Source of the DNA: Gammaproteobacteria bacterium
GTDB lineage: Bacteria; Pseudomonadota; Gammaproteobacteria; Pseudomonadales; Azotimanducaceae
NCBI GenBank assembly: GCA_009837185.1
Contig: VXUA01000042.1
Location: forward strand, 54,816-118,815
Reading direction: 5' to 3'
DNA length: 64,000 bases
Part shown: positions 10,293-18,644 of the stretch, piece after piece
How the letters are laid out: each line of letters opens with the position of its first letter
How positions within the stretch are numbered: position 1 is the stretch's first letter
Program-made: the position numbers and the translations under genes
The notes under the pieces: model-generated
What the model was told of the DNA's origin: nothing
Database searches by the model: none
Seen by the model: only the letters and a program-made list of their open reading frames with translations

Positions 10293-10967
10293 TTAGAGAT
10301 AGTTCAGTAGAAGTAGCGTAATAGCTGTCAACACGATCCCTGATGTAATCACACCTTGCACGCTCTTGAGTAATGGGTTCATTTTCCCGAATATCGCGTT
10401 CAATTCGATGATCAAGATCAAAGCGAGTAAACCAAACATCCCGTAGGATTCAGCCGTGATACCACCTCCAAAACCGCCTCCAACGTGCGCGCTCGAAACC
10501 ATCGTAGCTACCATCGGGATAGAAAACAGAGTGTTCGTGCGACTTGCGAGTAGAGCCGCGGCCGCTGCACTGCCTTGATTGGGGTCAGCTTCTCCACCAT
10601 CCCTCAAACTCTCGCTTGATTTAATCACAATCTTTTGATTCGGCCAGATGATGAGCCAAACATTCGCAGCCATTAATGTTGCCATGAGGGCAGCTATGAG
10701 CGTGTCTTCCGAAAACGTACCTTTAGACCAAATGCTGTGAACCAAATACAAACCAGTCAACAAGGTCAATAACGCTGCCCAACGAAACCACCACAATGCT
10801 TTCGGGACAAGACCTGTAAAAGTGCTAATCTTGGCTTCGTTGGAAGCTTTGGCTAAGTATCCACCCTGTACGAAATTGAAATAGTACAGTAAGCCAATCC
10901 ACGCAATACCAAAAACAATGTGGGAAAAGCGGACAAAGTAATCAATAATCGCCATGTCAAATTCCAT
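10293..10967 (-). CDS. Short PuuD-like membrane protein (urate oxidase N-terminal domain)
   Basis: A 224-residue integral membrane protein. The start at 10967 is fixed by a GAGGAG ribosome site seven bases upstream. Six hydrophobic segments are visible. FSHIVFGIAWIGLLYYFNFVQGG, PKALWWFRWAALLTLLTG and the FSIPMVATMVSSAHVG block are characteristic of the urate hydroxylase PuuD / Urate_ox_N family. The full PuuD enzyme has a C-terminal cytochrome c domain. This protein ends after the membrane part and has no CXXCH, and no purine-catabolism genes are nearby. Function in urate oxidation is therefore doubtful. Confidence 0.75.
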   Translation of the reverse strand: MEFDMAIIDYFVRFSHIVFGIAWIGLLYYFNFVQGGYLAKASNEAKISTFTGLVPKALWWFRWAALLTLLTGLYLVHSIWSKGTFSEDTLIAALMATLMAANVWLIIWPNQKIVIKSSESLRDGGEADPNQGSAAAAALLASRTNTLFSIPMVATMVSSAHVGGGFGGGITAESYGMFGLLALILIIELNAIFGKMNPLLKSVQGVITSGIVLTAITLLLLNYL

Positions 10968-11367: not shown

Positions 11368-14300
11368 GTGACGTCCATTCTCGAGCGAGTACCGTCTAGA
11401 GTTCGTAGTCTCTTGAGCCTTCCGGTGTTGCGACCGGTTGCGATTTCGATGTTGTTCCTAGCAATGGTGATCTTGGGAACCATAGGCATCTCTCGAATGC
11501 CGGTGGAACTGGTTCCTTCCTTTGAAGGAAATGTGATTACGGTAAGTTTTGCACGTCCCGGAAGTACCGATGAGGTGGTCGAACGCGAGATTTTGCTCCC
11601 CTTAATGTCCCGAATCTCTGGATTAGGTGGCGTGATCGACGACCATGCCACAATTTCTCGTTCCTTAGGTAGCCTAACACTAGTCTTTCATCCTTTGACA
11701 AATATGAAAGTGCGCGAACGCCAGGTCAAAGATATTGCATCCATTTTAGTTCGGCAACAGCCCAAAAATTCAACATATATTAATGTCGGTAATAGTGCGG
11801 GTAATGGTCAATTGGGGGCTGCTGGAAATCGCACGGTCATGCAGCTGTTGGTCACTTCAGAAGGACTTCACTCTGACGCGATCTATGATATTGCGAGTGA
11901 TCGAATTGAGCCGAGGCTAGCTTCGGTACCCGGAGTAGCAACGGCACAACTCCAAGGCGGAGGAGGACGTCAAGTAAATATATTTGTGGATCCCGATGCT
12001 GCCGTTGCATTAGGAATTTCTCTTGGGGACGTTCGGGGGGCGATCGCAAATAGTTTAGGGCAAGTGGCATCTGTTGGTACTTTGGATTCCGGAAATGGAC
12101 GAACCAACGTTATGGTCGATGGGCAGGTCGATTCAATCAATCACATTAGGAACGCGCGCGTTGATCCCGCTCGAGGCGTTACGGTTACCCACATTTCGAC
12201 AATTGAACTCGGATACGCGCTCGGTGAGACGCGGTTGCGGTACAACGGTAATCCAGCAATCAGGCTTCAAGTATTTCAAGAACCAGGTTCGAATCTCGTA
12301 AAGGTCGGTAAAGCCCTTGAGAAGAGAATCGAAGAAGTCAGAAGAGAGATCCAACACTTTGGCTTGGGTCTCGAAATACTCAATAATCAAGCTGAGATCA
12401 TAGACAATCAAATTGACCGAGTTTACAAGCTCGGATTTATTGGACTCGCTATTGCTCTAGTAGTACTTTTCTTGTTCTTACGACGCTGGCGTGCAGTGCT
12501 TGTTGTGGGAATTTCCGTCCCTGTAAGTGTAACTTTTGCTCTGGCGGGACTGTATTTATTGGGTCAAACTGTGAATTTACTCACTCTGTTTGGACTCACC
12601 ATGGCGATCGGTCTATTGGTAGACAACAGTGTTGTGGTCTACGAATCTATTCTGCGCGGTCTGGAACGAGGGCTTAGCACGGTGCAGGCAACCAGAATAG
12701 GACTGCGTAAGACCGTGCGCGCGATTGTCGCCGCCAGTGTTACCACTACGATAGTGTTTTTACCTATATTTATTGTAGGTTTAGAAGATCCCATCCTACA
12801 ACAACAGGTTGAAACTCTCGCGATAGCGGTGATTCTTCCAATAATCGCTTCCATGTTGGTAGCAGTGGGTCTGGTGCCACTGTTAGCGCACAAATTAGCA
12901 GCGCCAGCTGCATTTAAACGCATCCAGCAACGACGAGAAGTGCGCAAACTCCGTGGTGGTTTTCGCACCCCAGAACCTATGAAAATTTTGTTGTCGGGTT
13001 TCGCTGCTAAGGCAATCCGACATCCCGCTTCTTGGATTGCAGGGACGATCATTTTGGTTTTGGCTACACTGGTGTCGACGCTTGCTTTCAATCTCGTTGC
13101 AGTAGGCGGCCTTGCACGCGAAGCGGAACAAGCGAACAACATATTTGTCCCGATACGAGTCCACGAAAACAAACGGGCGGAACTAGATCAGATTGAGCAA
13201 CACATTCAAGTTATCGAAGAAATTCTATTAGACACAGCAGGGGTAGAGTCGATTCAGTCTAGTGTGAACGTACAACGTGTATCGTTGGACATTGCTTTTG
13301 TTGACATCAACGACCGTCCTGACGACTTTCGTGCTAGTGAATTTCGTCCCCTTGTGGATCGTATCATTCAAGAAAAAAACATGACAGATGTCTTCGATCT
13401 TGTGGGCGTTTATCGTGGTTACCGAGGTGGGTGGAGTGGTCAAGGCTACTATGGAGGATCTTGGTTTCGCGGCACTCCAAAAGAAGTCATCGTCTCTGGT
13501 CCGGATCCCAAACTCCTTTATGAAGTGGCACATGATATCAGTACCCGCCTTCGAGAACACCCTAGAGTCCAATCCGCCGAAGTTCCAATAACTCGAAGCT
13601 CTCCAGAACTTTGGATAGAGCCCAACCGTCGCGCCTTAGAAGCGTTTGGTCTAACACTGCAGCAAGCGATGTCATTTGTTGATTTGTCCGGCCGAGGGTC
13701 AGGGTCTACCCAAATCAATTTTCCGCTATCTAATGGTCGTGAAATACCTATTTACATTGAACTTGAGAGCGCGAGAGACCGGAACGTAGCGCTACGAGAA
13801 CTGAGGGAGATGCATGTCCAAACTCCCAATGGAGCTCTCCCCGTAACCGAGTTGGCTAGCATTAGACAGGGGACACCACCGGCAACTATCACGTATAGAA
13901 AGGGTCGCCGCGAATTGCCGGTGAATTATTCCCTAGATGACGACGTACCAGACAGTGGCCCGGAGCGCGTCGCAATTGAAGAAAACGTCAAGGAATTTAT
14001 TCGGCAAATTCCACTACCGGCTGGTTATGTAGTAGATACGCCAAGTGAAGGGGAACAATTTAGCTACGCAAAGAAACTAGTGCTGCCGGTACTAGGATTA
14101 CTGTTCCTTGTATTAGCGTTTACGTTCGAATCCCTTGCGGTTCCGGTGTTAATATTTCTTGCGATTCCACTAGTGATCGTGGGGTCATTGTGGGGATTAA
14201 TCCTAACGGGTACGCCTTTTGAATTTTTTGCATACTTGGGATTCTTCGTACTCGCCGGTTTGAGCATAAATCCCTCCATCTTATTGCTTGATCGGATGCA

Positions 14301-16200
14301 ACAATTTTCTCGCGCCGGGTTTACCCGCGGAGGAGCAGCTTTCGCATCGGTGCTCGAACGGACTCGGCCGGTTTTGATGACCACAGCAACTACGGTTGCA
14401 GCCCTATTTCCTCTCGCCATTACCACCGGCCGCGAAAACGAAATGTGGCCACCGTTCGCCATCGTAGTCATGGGTGGCTTAGTTTCCAGCGCGATATTAA
14501 CTCTCATCATCATCCCCGTCGGTTATGTGTTTCTCAAACGCCTAGATGAGACCTTTGGTCGACTAGGTGCTTGGCTCATGATTGGTTGGATGACGCTTAC
14601 CATCGGGACGGTGTTCGTTTTTGTGGAATTTGCTGGCTTAAAAGCGTTTTTCTGGCAGATCGTTTGCTCGGTTTTGATCGGTGGTTTTTACCTAGGCTTG
14701 ATCGTGCTGATATTCCGGCGGGTTGAGTTACCGGAACCGGAAGCGCGCGACGGCCCTCCGAAGCTTGTTGTTACCTACCTTCGCAAGATTTACGGTTTAC
14801 CTGGAGCGATACGGCGCGCGCTGAATTCCCGCAAGGAATTCGTCGCTAAAGTACTAGAAGCTAAGGGGACGATCTTTACCCGGGCGGAAACGCTGGAGCG
14901 AACGATGGTACTGCTCATTTTGGCCGTTGGTTTTAGTGCTATCGGTTGGATAAACAACGCCGGTGGATGGAAATTGATGTTTTGGTTGGCCGCTTCGGCA
15001 TTCCTAGCGTTGATCTGTGTTGAAATTCGGAAGTTTCGAGGATACGTCACACCAGAGGGTGTTCACGTTCGCGGTGGTATAGAAGGCTTTTTCAAGATAT
15101 TGCTACCTTGGATCGCGGTGCTCAGTTTCTGCTACTTGGAAATTGTCAATCCCGTGTATCTAAACGATGAACCAGCGCGGACAAACTGGTTCTGGCCGAT
15201 AGTGTTCAGTACGTTGCTACTATTTGGACAAATGGTTCGTAGAAATGCACTACAACAATCCACCGGGAAAATCGCGCCGCGCGTTACTCGTGGTTTTTTG
15301 AAGTATCCGCGCACATGGTACCGTCGGATGACATTAAAACTTGGAGGGTTAGATCTTCCAGGCAAGGAAATACATGCATTGTCATCCGTATCTTTCACCG
15401 CGACTAAGGGAATGATCGGAATTTTGGGACCTAACGGTGCTGGTAAAACGACGCTGCTCCGCCAACTTGCGGGCATACTTGATCCTACTCGAGGCAATGT
15501 CCGATATGGTGGAGTATCGCTCGGTCCGATTCGAAACGTTCTCGCACGTTGGGTTGGATACTTGCCGCAAGATGCTGGTCTCCCTCGCAATCTGTCGTCG
15601 CGTGAATATCTAGCGTATTACGCAGCACTTTATGAGATTCCTCCAGAAGAGCGAGCTGAACGTGTTCGCACACTTCTAAAGGAAGTCGGGCTGGGTGATA
15701 AGATTGATGAAAAAATAGGGTCCCTGTCTGGTGGAATGCGCCAACGCGTAGCAGTCGCACGGACGTTGTTGAGACTACCTTCCATCATTATCGTTGACGA
15801 ACCAACCGTGGGGTTGGATCCACGCGAGCGCATTCGTTTTCGCAATCTGCTCTCACGGCTAGCTGCCTCGCGTATCGTGCTATTTTCGACTCACGTAGTT
15901 GAAGATGTAGCTATTTCGTGTGATCGTGTGTTGGTTATCGCGAAGAGTCGACTAAGATTTGACGGTAGTCCAACGGATCTGGCCCAGCAGGCGACCGACA
16001 AAGTTTGGGAGGTGGAGCTTGAACCAGGCGCAAGCTTTGAACTTCCAACGGGTGCCACCCTAGCCGAGGAATCGCCCACACCGGCCGGCGGAAAACTTCA
16101 ACGCATCGTCGCCGCGGTGTCACCGAGCGAGAGGGCGAAGTCGATCGGACCACGACCAGAGGATGGTTATCTTTGGCTCCTTGCACAGGCAGAAACGTGA
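11368..16200 (+). CDS. RND efflux permease fused to six extra TM helices and an ABC ATPase
   Basis: A single 1,610-residue chain starting at GTG 11368. Residues 1-1060 form a complete HAE1/AcrB-like RND permease. TM1 is near 25-42, the first porter domain spans about 45-350, TM2-6 cover 355-510, TM7 is near 556-575, the second porter domain spans 590-895 and TM8-12 cover 900-1055. TM4 reads [13 protein letters not shown], with D419 followed by Asn. TM10 reads [12 protein letters not shown], without the usual Lys. Residues 1070-1290 add about six hydrophobic segments. Residues 1310-1610 are an ABC ATPase of the ABC-2 (CcmA-like) type: Walker [10 protein letters not shown] 1354-1362, signature LSGGM 1453-1457, Walker B IIIVDEP 1473-1479 and switch His1509. 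The frame is open throughout with no internal stop. The next gene overlaps as GTGA and encodes an ABC-2-like permease. No membrane-fusion protein or outer-membrane channel gene is adjacent. The fusion is seen directly; its mechanism is unknown. Confidence 0.93.
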
Positions 16201-16931
16201 GAAATTTTTGGGTAAAAATTTCGCAATGGTTTGAATTGATTCGACTTGCGATGGTGGCAATAGCCGGGCATTTTTTTTGGATTTGGCCGCTTGTACTAGT
16301 CGTTGGTTGGTTGTCGGTACATACTTTCCTCGAACACGATAAGATCAACATTATCAATTCGATCACCGTATCGGATGTTCAGAATCGAATGTTGGGCATA
16401 CCGTTAGCAATATTGGGTGGGATACTCGGACTAAGAATCATCGCCGGAGAAATAAATGCTCGGACGATTGAGATCATCTACACGGTACCGGGCGGCGCGA
16501 ACCGTGTTTGGACGATCAAGTTGCTCGCAGCAATTTCGATGGTCGTCTTCACTGAAATCGTTCTCGCGTTGTACACTTGGTTCTACTTTACTCACTTCCC
16601 CATCGAAGCAATGTTGGGTGCATTTCTAGCCGCCATGTTTTTCATGGTGATATCCATGGGATTCTCTGCGCTCTTTCGCAGTGAAGTGTCCGGCGCGATT
16701 ATTGCTGTGGTGGTGTTTGTTTTTAGTTTGCTCTTGCTACAGGGGCCTGGGGAAGAAGGCATGAAAAAATTCTTACCGTTCTTCAACCCATACGCGGCGA
16801 ACATCGATGAGTCTGTGAACTTGCTATCTCTAACGATTCAAAACCGAATCGGCTACATTCTTGTCATACTGAGTCTGATCTGTTTGGCCTACATGCGCGG
16901 CGAACGACGCGAAAAGCTACTCAGTGTCTAA
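16197..16931 (+). CDS. ABC-2-type permease-like membrane protein
   Basis: A 244-residue inner-membrane protein. The start is the GTG at 16197, overlapping the stop of the RND-ABC gene (GTGA). The earlier in-frame ATG at 16173 lies inside that gene. Six hydrophobic segments are visible, with a cytoplasmic loop [30 protein letters not shown] near residue 85. That loop resembles the coupling region of ABC-2 permeases such as NosY and GldF. The ATPase domain at the end of the preceding protein is of the type that pairs with such permeases, so the two probably form one complex. Cargo is unknown. Confidence 0.8.
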
Positions 16932-17556
16932 TGCACTGCAATACGATCACCTAGTTCAGGTAGCGTTTAACAGCACCACAACTCCAATCATACAAGAAGA
17001 CGGAATCGTTCAGTATGTTCCGGGCTTCTTATCTCCGACCACCAGCGATCATTTGTTAGCACGTTCTCTGGTTGAAATTGTCTGGGCTCAAGATCACATC
17101 AAACTCTTCGGAAAGTCGATGCCCGTTCCACGTATGTCGGCTTGGTTCTCTAACATCAATGCCTCATACCGATACTCCGGTTTAGAGCACCAACCTCAAG
17201 TAATGCCGGATTTTGTTAGAGATCTGCTAAGTGAAGTTTCAAAGAGGACTGAGATCGAATTCAATTCTATATTGGTGAATCTCTATCAGGATGGTACCCA
17301 TAGTATGGGCTGGCATGCTGATAACGAACCTGAACTTGGACCAGAAGTGTCTATTGCTTCGCTAAGTGTCGGAGCCGAACGCGAACTGAGATTTCGACAC
17401 CGACATAACAACGGTCGGCGTTTAGCAATCTCCCTCGAGCACGGTTCGTTATTGATGATGTACCCGCCGATACAAGAGTATTGGTTACACGAACTACCGA
17501 AACGACGTAGTATTACTGAGCCGAGGATAAATTTTTCGTTTCGCGTACTAGGTTAA
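16924..17556 (+). CDS. alkB: AlkB-type Fe(II)/2-oxoglutarate DNA dioxygenase
   Basis: A 210-residue enzyme that oxidatively removes alkyl groups from bases. It begins at GTG 16924, overlapping the permease gene by 8 bp. Iron ligands are H131 and D133 in [13 protein letters not shown] and H189 in YWLHELP. The 2-oxoglutarate arginines are R201 and R207 in [12 protein letters not shown]. The substrate-pocket block [18 protein letters not shown] is also present. The length fits the short ALKBH2/3-like bacterial group. Its overlap with an efflux operon suggests co-transcription, but no shared function is implied. Confidence 0.93.
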
Positions 17557-17561
17557 GAATT

Positions 17562-18644
17562 ATGCGCGCCACTGTTTTAAGAGAAGTTAACGCGCCCTTG
17601 ACAATCGAAGAAGTTGACATTAGCGAACCCGCTGCTCGAGAGGTTTTAATCCGAACTGTCGCTGCCGGGATTTGTCATTCTGATCTACATTTCCAACTAG
17701 GGTCATTTCCTTGTGAATTACCGACAGTTTTAGGACACGAAGCCGCAGGTGTGGTTGAATCAGTTGGCAAGGATGTGGCCTATGTACGACCTGGAGATCA
17801 TGTAATCACATGTCTATCCGCGTTCTGTGGTCAGTGTGAGCATTGCTTAACCGGACACTTAGTTCGTTGTTCGGTATCGACTCTAGAGCGAGATAAAAGT
17901 CAAGAACCTAGGCTATGTCAGGGACCTCACAAAATTCATCAATTTCTCAATGTCTCGGCGTTTGCCGAGTATATGTTGGTTCACGAACACGCACTCGTCA
18001 AGATTCGGCCAGACATGCCGCTTGACCGCGCGGCATTGATTGGCTGTGCCGTCACAACAGGAGTCGGAGCAGTCGTGCACACTGCTGCCGTCGAATTTGG
18101 TTCGTCCGTTGCAGTGATTGGCTGTGGTGGTGTCGGTCTCTCTTGCATCAATGGTGCAGCGTTGGTCGGCGCGGGACAGATTATTGCGATCGATACAGTC
18201 GACAACAAACTACAGCTAGCCAAGAAGTTTGGAGCAACAGACACAATCAACGCGTCCAATACAGATCCAGTGAGTGCTGTTCGCGATCTTACAACCGATG
18301 GTGTGCACTACTCATTTGAGGCGATCGGTCTCAAGTCCACTACGGAACAAGCTTGGAATATGCTTCGCCCAGGAGGCTGTGCGACAGTCATCGGCTTGAT
18401 TCCAGAAGGAACGATGATTTCCATTCATGGAATAGACTTGATTCAAGAGAAGAAACTGCAGGGTTCCCTAATGGGTTCAAACAGATTTCGAGTCGACATG
18501 CCGAGACTAGTAGAGTTTTACCTCAACGGAAAATTAAACCTTGACGATTTGATCTCCGGTCATGTCCAGCTTGAACACATTAATGACTGTTTCTCACAAC
18601 TCCGCTCTGGTGAAGTGACCAGAAACGTCATAATGTTTGAGTGA
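17562..18644 (+). CDS. Zinc-dependent medium-chain alcohol dehydrogenase
   Basis: A 360-residue NAD(P)-dependent alcohol/aldehyde oxidoreductase of the MDR family. Catalytic zinc ligands are C38 (GICHSDLH), H59 and E60 (GHEAAG); the third cysteine is near 163 (IGCAVTTG). The structural zinc cysteines are C89, C92, C95 and C103. The Rossmann glycine motif is VIGCGGVGLSC near 184-194, followed by IIAIDT, whose Asp suggests preference for NAD. It starts 5 bp after alkB. Length and motifs fit class III-like ADHs, but the substrate cannot be set. Confidence 0.9.
   Translation: MRATVLREVNAPLTIEEVDISEPAAREVLIRTVAAGICHSDLHFQLGSFPCELPTVLGHEAAGVVESVGKDVAYVRPGDHVITCLSAFCGQCEHCLTGHLVRCSVSTLERDKSQEPRLCQGPHKIHQFLNVSAFAEYMLVHEHALVKIRPDMPLDRAALIGCAVTTGVGAVVHTAAVEFGSSVAVIGCGGVGLSCINGAALVGAGQIIAIDTVDNKLQLAKKFGATDTINASNTDPVSAVRDLTTDGVHYSFEAIGLKSTTEQAWNMLRPGGCATVIGLIPEGTMISIHGIDLIQEKKLQGSLMGSNRFRVDMPRLVEFYLNGKLNLDDLISGHVQLEHINDCFSQLRSGEVTRNVIMFE

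Follow-up and report, generated by a model that had tools for sequence, protein, structure and literature searches.

Does a reading frame that runs without interruption from an efflux permease into an ATPase encode a genuine protein and, if so, to what kind of exporter could it belong? This question is raised by a locus at positions 11368 to 16931 of a 64,000-nucleotide stretch of DNA (the window), which lies on contig C47 (VXUA01000042.1) of a 2.77-Mb genome assembly (GCA_009837185.1, 95% complete) from a gammaproteobacterium of the family Azotimanducaceae. The locus encodes a fusion of a resistance-nodulation-division (RND) permease with an ATP-binding cassette (ABC) ATPase, followed by a small ABC-2-like permease. 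These two genes are a conserved unit, which four further genes join in other genera. From comparison of these loci we favour, on balance, the view that the products form one export complex.

The fusion gene and its adjoining permease

The genes and the RND part are located in the window as follows.

11368..16200, + strand: RND-ABC fusion gene, 1,610 residues, GTG start and TGA stop (open frame; Pfam ACR_tran and ABC_tran; full length kept in relatives)
11422..14535, + strand: RND (AcrB-like) part, residues 19-1056 (ACR_tran, profile positions 5-1020 of 1021)
16197..16931, + strand: ABC-2-like permease, 244 residues from a GTG overlapping the fusion stop (PF12679; adjoins the fusion in 31 of 31 loci)

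The fusion frame comprises 1,610 codons without an internal stop. In Pfam scans ACR_tran matches residues 19-1056 with 500.8 bits (cut-off 28 bits), a full-length match to the HAE-1 type of RND permease, and ABC_tran matches residues 1339-1480 with 98.6 bits (cut-off 25 bits). One unbroken frame thus carries a complete AcrB-like permease and an ABC ATPase, as the original prediction, made from the sequence alone, had proposed. The same holds for its proposal that the downstream gene overlaps as GTGA and encodes an ABC-2-like permease: the GTG at 16197 overlaps the TGA, and the 244-residue product matches PF12679 with 32.5 bits (cut-off 27.2 bits), providing the cognate transmembrane permease expected of an ABC exporter. 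In the list of open reading frames this gene begins instead at a TTG at 16173.

We read 31 loci containing the fusion (the window, L009-L019, L056-L073 and L077), which lie on 30 distinct contigs since L013 and L060 are the same. The permease match adjoins the fusion in all of them, and in 25 a start codon overlaps the fusion stop. Matches to PF12679 were below the cut-off or absent in the three relatives' permeases that were scanned. The small permease of L017 (12821-13497) is split over two frames, reflecting a frameshift, decay or an assembly error.

Distribution of the fusion

Our family survey covered 18 genomes of the genus, including that of the window, 31 others of the family and 29 from other families of the order. 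All 18 genomes of the genus contain the fusion as an open frame of roughly 1,600 codons, and it is present in 6 of the 31 other family members. Contig ends interrupt it in two of the latter (G023 and G044), and all that remains in G044 is the ATPase with the end of the middle block. The fusion was found in 0 of the 29 genomes from other families. Identity over residues 1057-1610 ranges from 93% down to 45% across the survey genomes, and the junction block is kept down to 27% identity, with invariant residues.

A protein database search with the fusion returned 3,038 matches, which were not verified singly and do not represent a count of fusions. Most of the 120 proteins listed are 1,550-1,630 residues long, and one listed protein is named as Acidobacteriota. 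In a second listing of loci 11 of 17 are fusions, the other six (Verrucomicrobiota, L020-L025) matching through the ATPase alone. The 11 fusion loci lie on contigs of metagenome-assembled genomes (MAGs) labelled Gammaproteobacteria (6), Pseudomonadales (3), OMG group (1) and Deltaproteobacteria (1). Relatives of the fusion reach another family of the class and a deltaproteobacterial MAG. A tblastn search with the middle block found it in 2 of 369 genomes of the class, including the window's own. A profile search of 398 genomes of the phylum recovered the own genome alone, a lower bound since five candidates were scored per genome, and there was no match in the plasmid collection.

Relatives carrying separate genes were sought by searching proteins of 305-970 residues for an unfused middle block. 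There were two matches, both fragments that still contain RND sequence; this search relied on shared short words, so distant unfused versions could escape it. Because the same uninterrupted architecture recurs throughout the genus and far outside it, chance or assembly error is very unlikely. The original prediction had allowed for an artefact, to be betrayed by relatives with two separate genes, and had looked to recurrence of the fusion and its neighbour in other genomes; separate genes were not seen in this search, and both fusion and permease recur in the genus, the family and further families.

The fusion and permease genes are flanked in the window by a match to the urate oxidase N-terminal family (10293-10967) and a 2-oxoglutarate-Fe(II) oxygenase of AlkB-like type (16924-17556). 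The urate-type neighbour is still close by in members of the genus whose fusion is only 52-54% identical. Three of the 120 listed fusions (P0069, P0111 and P0114; 1,840-1,876 residues) have an additional N-terminal region with precomputed matches to sigma-70 region 4 and an HxxxCxxC motif, as though a sigma factor and a zinc-finger regulator had been joined to the pump.

A wider system of six genes

Outside the window's genus the fusion belongs to a cluster with the order ABC ATPase, BIG (a large permease-like protein of about 1,150 residues), RND adaptor, RND1 (an RND permease of about 1,040 residues), fusion and small permease. RND1 lies immediately upstream of the fusion in 10 of the 31 loci (L014-L018, L069-L072 and L077); in the 19 loci from the window's genus the sequence read does not include it, and L068 and L073 are cut. 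Among the ten, the adaptor is present in eight, directly before RND1, and BIG in seven (L016 and L071 are cut). The ABC gene is found in all three operon loci whose stretch reaches it (L018, L069 and L077, two of them cut), and in G036 and G048 coordinates place an ABC match just ahead of the stretch that was read.

The remaining four genes of the system are found on another contig (C62) of the own genome, which carries the ABC gene, copies of BIG, the adaptor and RND1. Here too the adaptor directly precedes RND1; it matches TIGR01730 with 150.5 bits (cut-off 94.9), and the RND1 protein is 48-55% identical to RND1 of three operons. We infer that the adaptor also partners the fusion itself. In 17 of 18 genomes of the genus (not in G001) coordinates place RND1 and an ABC match on the same contig, no more than about 6 kb apart, the gene-by-gene reading of this vicinity within the genus being that of the own genome. 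The original prediction envisaged a two-gene ABC-RND exporter. Since the fusion and permease form a conserved unit, a joined exporter remains the natural reading; its extent was underestimated, as four more genes cluster with these two in some relatives. The dual energy use and the transfer of cargo from the ABC to the RND part that the original prediction also suggested are conjectural.

The fusion and RND1 also occur together across genomes. In a survey of 76 genomes, counting RND1 at E<=1e-180, RND1 was found in 21, all of which contain the fusion, and neither was found in 53. Two further genomes have the fusion with RND1 not reaching the cut-off, G030 (RND1 cut by a contig end) and G044 (fusion cut). 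A quick tree was computed from 98 of 142 RND rows, after eight fragments or misread frames had been dropped and others thinned out; composition bias was flagged in 35 rows. The fusion and RND1 form clades that each have a support of 100 and show broadly the same deep splits, and their pairwise distances are correlated (r = 0.95 over 20 pairs). Matching splits and correlated distances are consistent with a partnership; shared vertical descent gives the same pattern. The two clades are placed apart in this tree, not as sisters, which does not support an origin of the two RND subunits by tandem duplication.

BIG has a predicted M1-peptidase-like domain and a helical, membrane-type N-terminus. The zinc motif HExxH and the GxMEN motif are absent from eight of eight sequences (two cut at one end), and for lack of the zinc motif M1 peptidase activity is not supported. 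Defence-system profiles gave no match to the permease or to two BIG proteins. In the own genome (L074; 3-1193, 1221-4721 and 5841-9389) the ABC gene is surrounded by at least two complete BIG genes and a partial third, the complete pair being 34% identical, and one BIG was read in each operon of the other genera. BIG of L072 (1-3256) is split over two frames through a frameshift, decay or assembly error. L012 has an extra BIG homologue of 1,186 residues directly after the fusion and permease (14215-17775), a place taken by a dehydrogenase-like gene in the window and in four near relatives. Beyond the system in the deltaproteobacterial MAG (L018, 13857-18282), genes for an ABC ATPase and an 823-residue protein occur together with a weak adaptor match; by resemblance we take these to be perhaps a second exporter, of the MacAB type.

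A membrane block predicted to lie partly within the ATPase domain

The C-terminal third of the fusion was examined by hydropathy, alignment and an AlphaFold2 model, which delimit the following features.

14566..14715, + strand: two extra predicted membrane helices past the RND part, residues 1067-1116 (AlphaFold2 model, hydropathy)
14764..14793, + strand: first strand predicted for the ABC domain, residues 1133-1142, with an invariant Tyr at its end (model; alignment to solved ABC domains)
14806..15345, + strand: insert within the ABC domain, residues 1147-1326, with four predicted membrane helices and two shorter helices (model)
15370..16002, + strand: remaining ABC ATPase core, residues 1335-1545 (Pfam, motifs, alignment, model)
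16003..16197, + strand: C-terminal tail, residues 1546-1610, with a conserved DGYLWL-type motif close to the end (alignment; strands and a helix in the model)

Between the RND and ABC parts hydropathy gives five main peaks above threshold within residues 1068-1260, and the model contains six long helices (1067-1088, 1094-1116, 1172-1195, 1199-1224, 1237-1260 and 1275-1298), in agreement with the "about six" further membrane helices of the original prediction; three of the four helices of the insert are picked up by hydropathy. Solved ABC domains align with the model from about model residue 92, which is residue 1131 of the protein, and V1135, K1140 and Y1142 are invariant in an alignment of 24 rows; the tyrosine ending the first strand presumably occupies the would-be A-loop position. 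The prediction thus places four of the six extra helices within the ATPase, behind its first strand. A complete ABC ATPase had been expected to follow the membrane block: its motifs are all present, while the start of the domain lies earlier, at about residues 1133-1142, before four of the six helices.

Walker A is at residue 1354, LSGG at 1453, the Walker B stretch from 1473 and the STH of the H-loop at 1507. Among the listed proteins longer than 1,500 residues the A-loop type, Q, signature, Walker B and H patterns are found in all 119, and Walker A in all but one. As these motifs are intact, the fusion is likely to use ATP. A fused ABC-2 permease was considered as the identity of the six-helix block and rejected: the block has no sequence match among solved structures other than two FliQ matches at E of about 0.2, and the model, with four helices inside the ATPase fold, also opposes it.

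The proton relay and the source of energy

Does the fused ATPase then drive the RND part? The proton relay of AcrB consists of D407, D408 and K940, together with R971 and T978 (PMC8277102). The corresponding positions in the fusion are these.

12622..12627, + strand: AcrB D407/D408 positions, D419 and N420 (alignment with E. coli AcrB)
14269..14274, + strand: AcrB K940/N941 positions, N968 and P969 (alignments)

The fusion thus has D, N and N (D-N-N; the last is N968) where AcrB has D407, D408 and K940. D-N-N is found in 117 of 117 fusions longer than 1,500 residues among the 120 listed and in 24 of 24 read from loci. R971 is kept, and the T978 position is T in 99, V in 17 and A in 1 of the 117. 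The residue following the K940 position is Pro in 23 and Ala in 1 of the 24 locus-read fusions, and Asp in RND1, which otherwise shares D-N-N (21 of 21 survey rows and 8 of 8 readable among 10 operon rows, the two sets overlapping).

It might be supposed that the ion gradient has given way to ATP and that the conformational cycle of an RND pump with a dead proton relay is powered directly by the fused ATPase. The asparagines, the Pro or Ala that follows K940 in place of the Asp of RND1, and the near-universal ABC motifs all speak for this proposal. Against it, D-N-N is also present in 10 of the 29 nearest unfused RND rows, three of which are unreadable (two wrong frames, one cut). These unfused pumps (L151, L152, L153, L154, L156, L157, L160, L161, L163 and L165) have an adaptor match beside the RND in eight of the ten stretches and an ABC match in three, each time on the opposite strand and 4-6 kb further out than the adaptor. 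Since unfused near relatives carry it, the D-N-N change most likely predates the fusion, and it is no sign that ATP took the place of an ion gradient; loss of the relay as proof of an ATP drive was accordingly rejected. D407 and R971 are retained, and dedicated permeases would seem needless if ATP drove the RND part only. We consider such a replacement unlikely, and the sequence neither proves nor excludes proton coupling of the fusion. Beyond the near relatives, D-N-N was found in 0 of 50 surveyed RNDs (2 rows unaligned), a sample biased to AcrB- and CzcA-like proteins, in which 30 were the listed best of their genomes and 20 were hand-picked from the lower end of the matches listed.

A proposed composite exporter and its alternatives

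The arrangement that we favour, and regard as somewhat better than an even prospect, is that the fusion, RND1, the adaptor, the second ABC ATPase and the two permease-like proteins constitute one export complex, its ABC half supplying an RND hetero-complex with cargo. The two ATPases, fused and stand-alone, would associate with each other, as would the small permease and the permease-like N-terminal part of BIG, giving an asymmetric ABC exporter of two ATPases and two permeases that would spend ATP on moving cargo across the inner membrane or out of it. In the periplasm the cargo might be taken up by the M1-peptidase-like and apparently non-catalytic domain of BIG, from where it could enter the porter chamber of an RND hetero-trimer composed of RND1 and the fusion; its exit would be by way of the adaptor and a channel in the outer membrane whose gene lies elsewhere. 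The role of the fusion would be to keep both transporters in register. Two copies of RND1 and one of the fusion per trimer would reconcile the three-fold RND with the two-fold ABC arrangement; one special subunit per trimer has a precedent in MdtBC, a B2C trimer in which the two kinds of subunit differ in role (PMC4462101). The ABC part would most likely represent an added, ATP-driven loading step, with the RND part retaining any ion coupling present in its unfused relatives. In its fullest form, as an envelope-spanning machine of ABC and RND parts in which a pseudo-peptidase receives the cargo, an RND hetero-trimer works with the adaptor, ATP loads and ion flow expels, the proposal is more tentative and falls a little short of an even chance.

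Several observations weigh against such a complex. Shared descent can also produce co-occurrence and correlated distances, and in L014 the sequence ahead of the adaptor matches neither BIG nor ABC. No special closeness links the fused ATPase to its stand-alone counterpart: some genomes lacking the fusion have ABC proteins that score equally well or better against it (170.5 bits in G028, compared with 154.4 bits for the protein of the own C62 contig). Assignment of BIG as a permease comes from one sub-threshold Pfam match in one copy (20.4 versus 27.2 bits), with no permease family match in the other copy scanned, and its helices are predicted in a model with a mean pLDDT (predicted local distance difference test) of 67.9. 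Several BIG copies beside the C62 ABC gene could form an ABC exporter without the fusion, and the two halves are separate loci in the window's genus, so that the fusion and permease could act alone. No outer membrane channel gene turned up, although no search was aimed at one.

Another possibility is that the fusion and small permease are self-sufficient, fused ATPases and permeases each pairing with copies of themselves, with RND1, the adaptor and the second ATPase forming a separate exporter. The invariable association of fusion and permease would agree with this, as would the separation of the two sets in the genus (about 357 kb apart on a single contig in G011) and the lack of special similarity between the ATPases. 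However, the genes are contiguous in other genera, in another family of the class and in the deltaproteobacterial MAG; the fusion is present in every genome with RND1; and the adaptor directly precedes RND1 in eight operon loci and on C62. We regard self-sufficiency as rather improbable. The ATPase might instead serve in regulation or assembly, opening, closing or localising the RND pump while moving no cargo itself, but the constant presence of a permease gene beside the fusion, together with the second ATPase and the large permease-like protein in the cluster, makes this very doubtful. An assembly artefact or chance read-through of two genes has a negligible claim, given that the order and approximate length are shared by all 18 genomes of the genus and by other assemblies, that the junction block is conserved and that the search for an unfused middle block showed no separate-gene relatives.

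Relation to known systems

The components of the favoured complex each resemble known transporters. The fusion shares a full-length AcrB-family match with the HAE-1 RND permeases (AcrB, MdtB and MdtC), and an RND-type adaptor accompanies RND1 in eight operon loci and on C62; it differs from these permeases in its C-terminal membrane block and ABC ATPase and in the Asn residues at D408 and K940. As in mdtABC, relatives encode two different RND permeases in tandem, and the adaptor gene immediately precedes RND1. This tandem is seen in 10 of 31 loci and not in the window's genus, where RND1 is at another locus, and, unlike MdtB and MdtC, the fusion and RND1 are not sister lineages in the quick tree.

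For both ATPases the best-scoring NCBIfam ABC models are GldA and DrrA, and an ABC-2-like permease adjoins the fusion, as in exporters of the DrrAB and GldAFG kind. The scores nevertheless fall far below the equivalog cut-offs (for the fusion, 170.6 versus 402.6 bits for GldA and 156.7 versus 312.45 bits for DrrA), the ATPase of the fusion forms one chain with an RND pump and is, by prediction, interrupted by membrane helices, and there is a large permease-like partner with an M1-like domain. The latter departs from M1 aminopeptidases in its missing motifs and its membrane-type N-terminus. With MacAB-TolC the system shares an ATP-binding inner membrane protein and a periplasmic adaptor, but the Pfam scan of the fusion shows no MacB/FtsX domain and the periplasmic part is of the RND type, the adaptor exceeding the cut-off of the RND adaptor model.

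Database names for such proteins cover parts only, with one JGI name joining AcrB and ABC ATPase. Searches of open-licence papers for such a fusion or its parts listed no description of an RND-ABC fusion; the wording "chimeric RND" or "fused RND" occurs in PMC12057347 and PMC4754349. As far as this literature was searched, the parts are of known kinds and their union in one chain and one gene cluster is undescribed.

Tripartite pumps are classed by their inner-membrane engine as ABC, RND or major facilitator superfamily (MFS) systems (PMC8277102). A conserved single chain of RND and ABC parts, with the rest of both kinds in one cluster, crosses this division and offers a natural system for asking how one machine could join a three-fold RND, a two-fold ABC exporter and two energy sources. 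As D-N-N is shared with unfused relatives, how RND pumps without D408 and K940 are energised is a separate and testable question. If the proposed complex is correct, ABC and RND transporters, otherwise separate engines of the inner membrane, would have been built into one machine, with an ATPase spliced onto an RND subunit.

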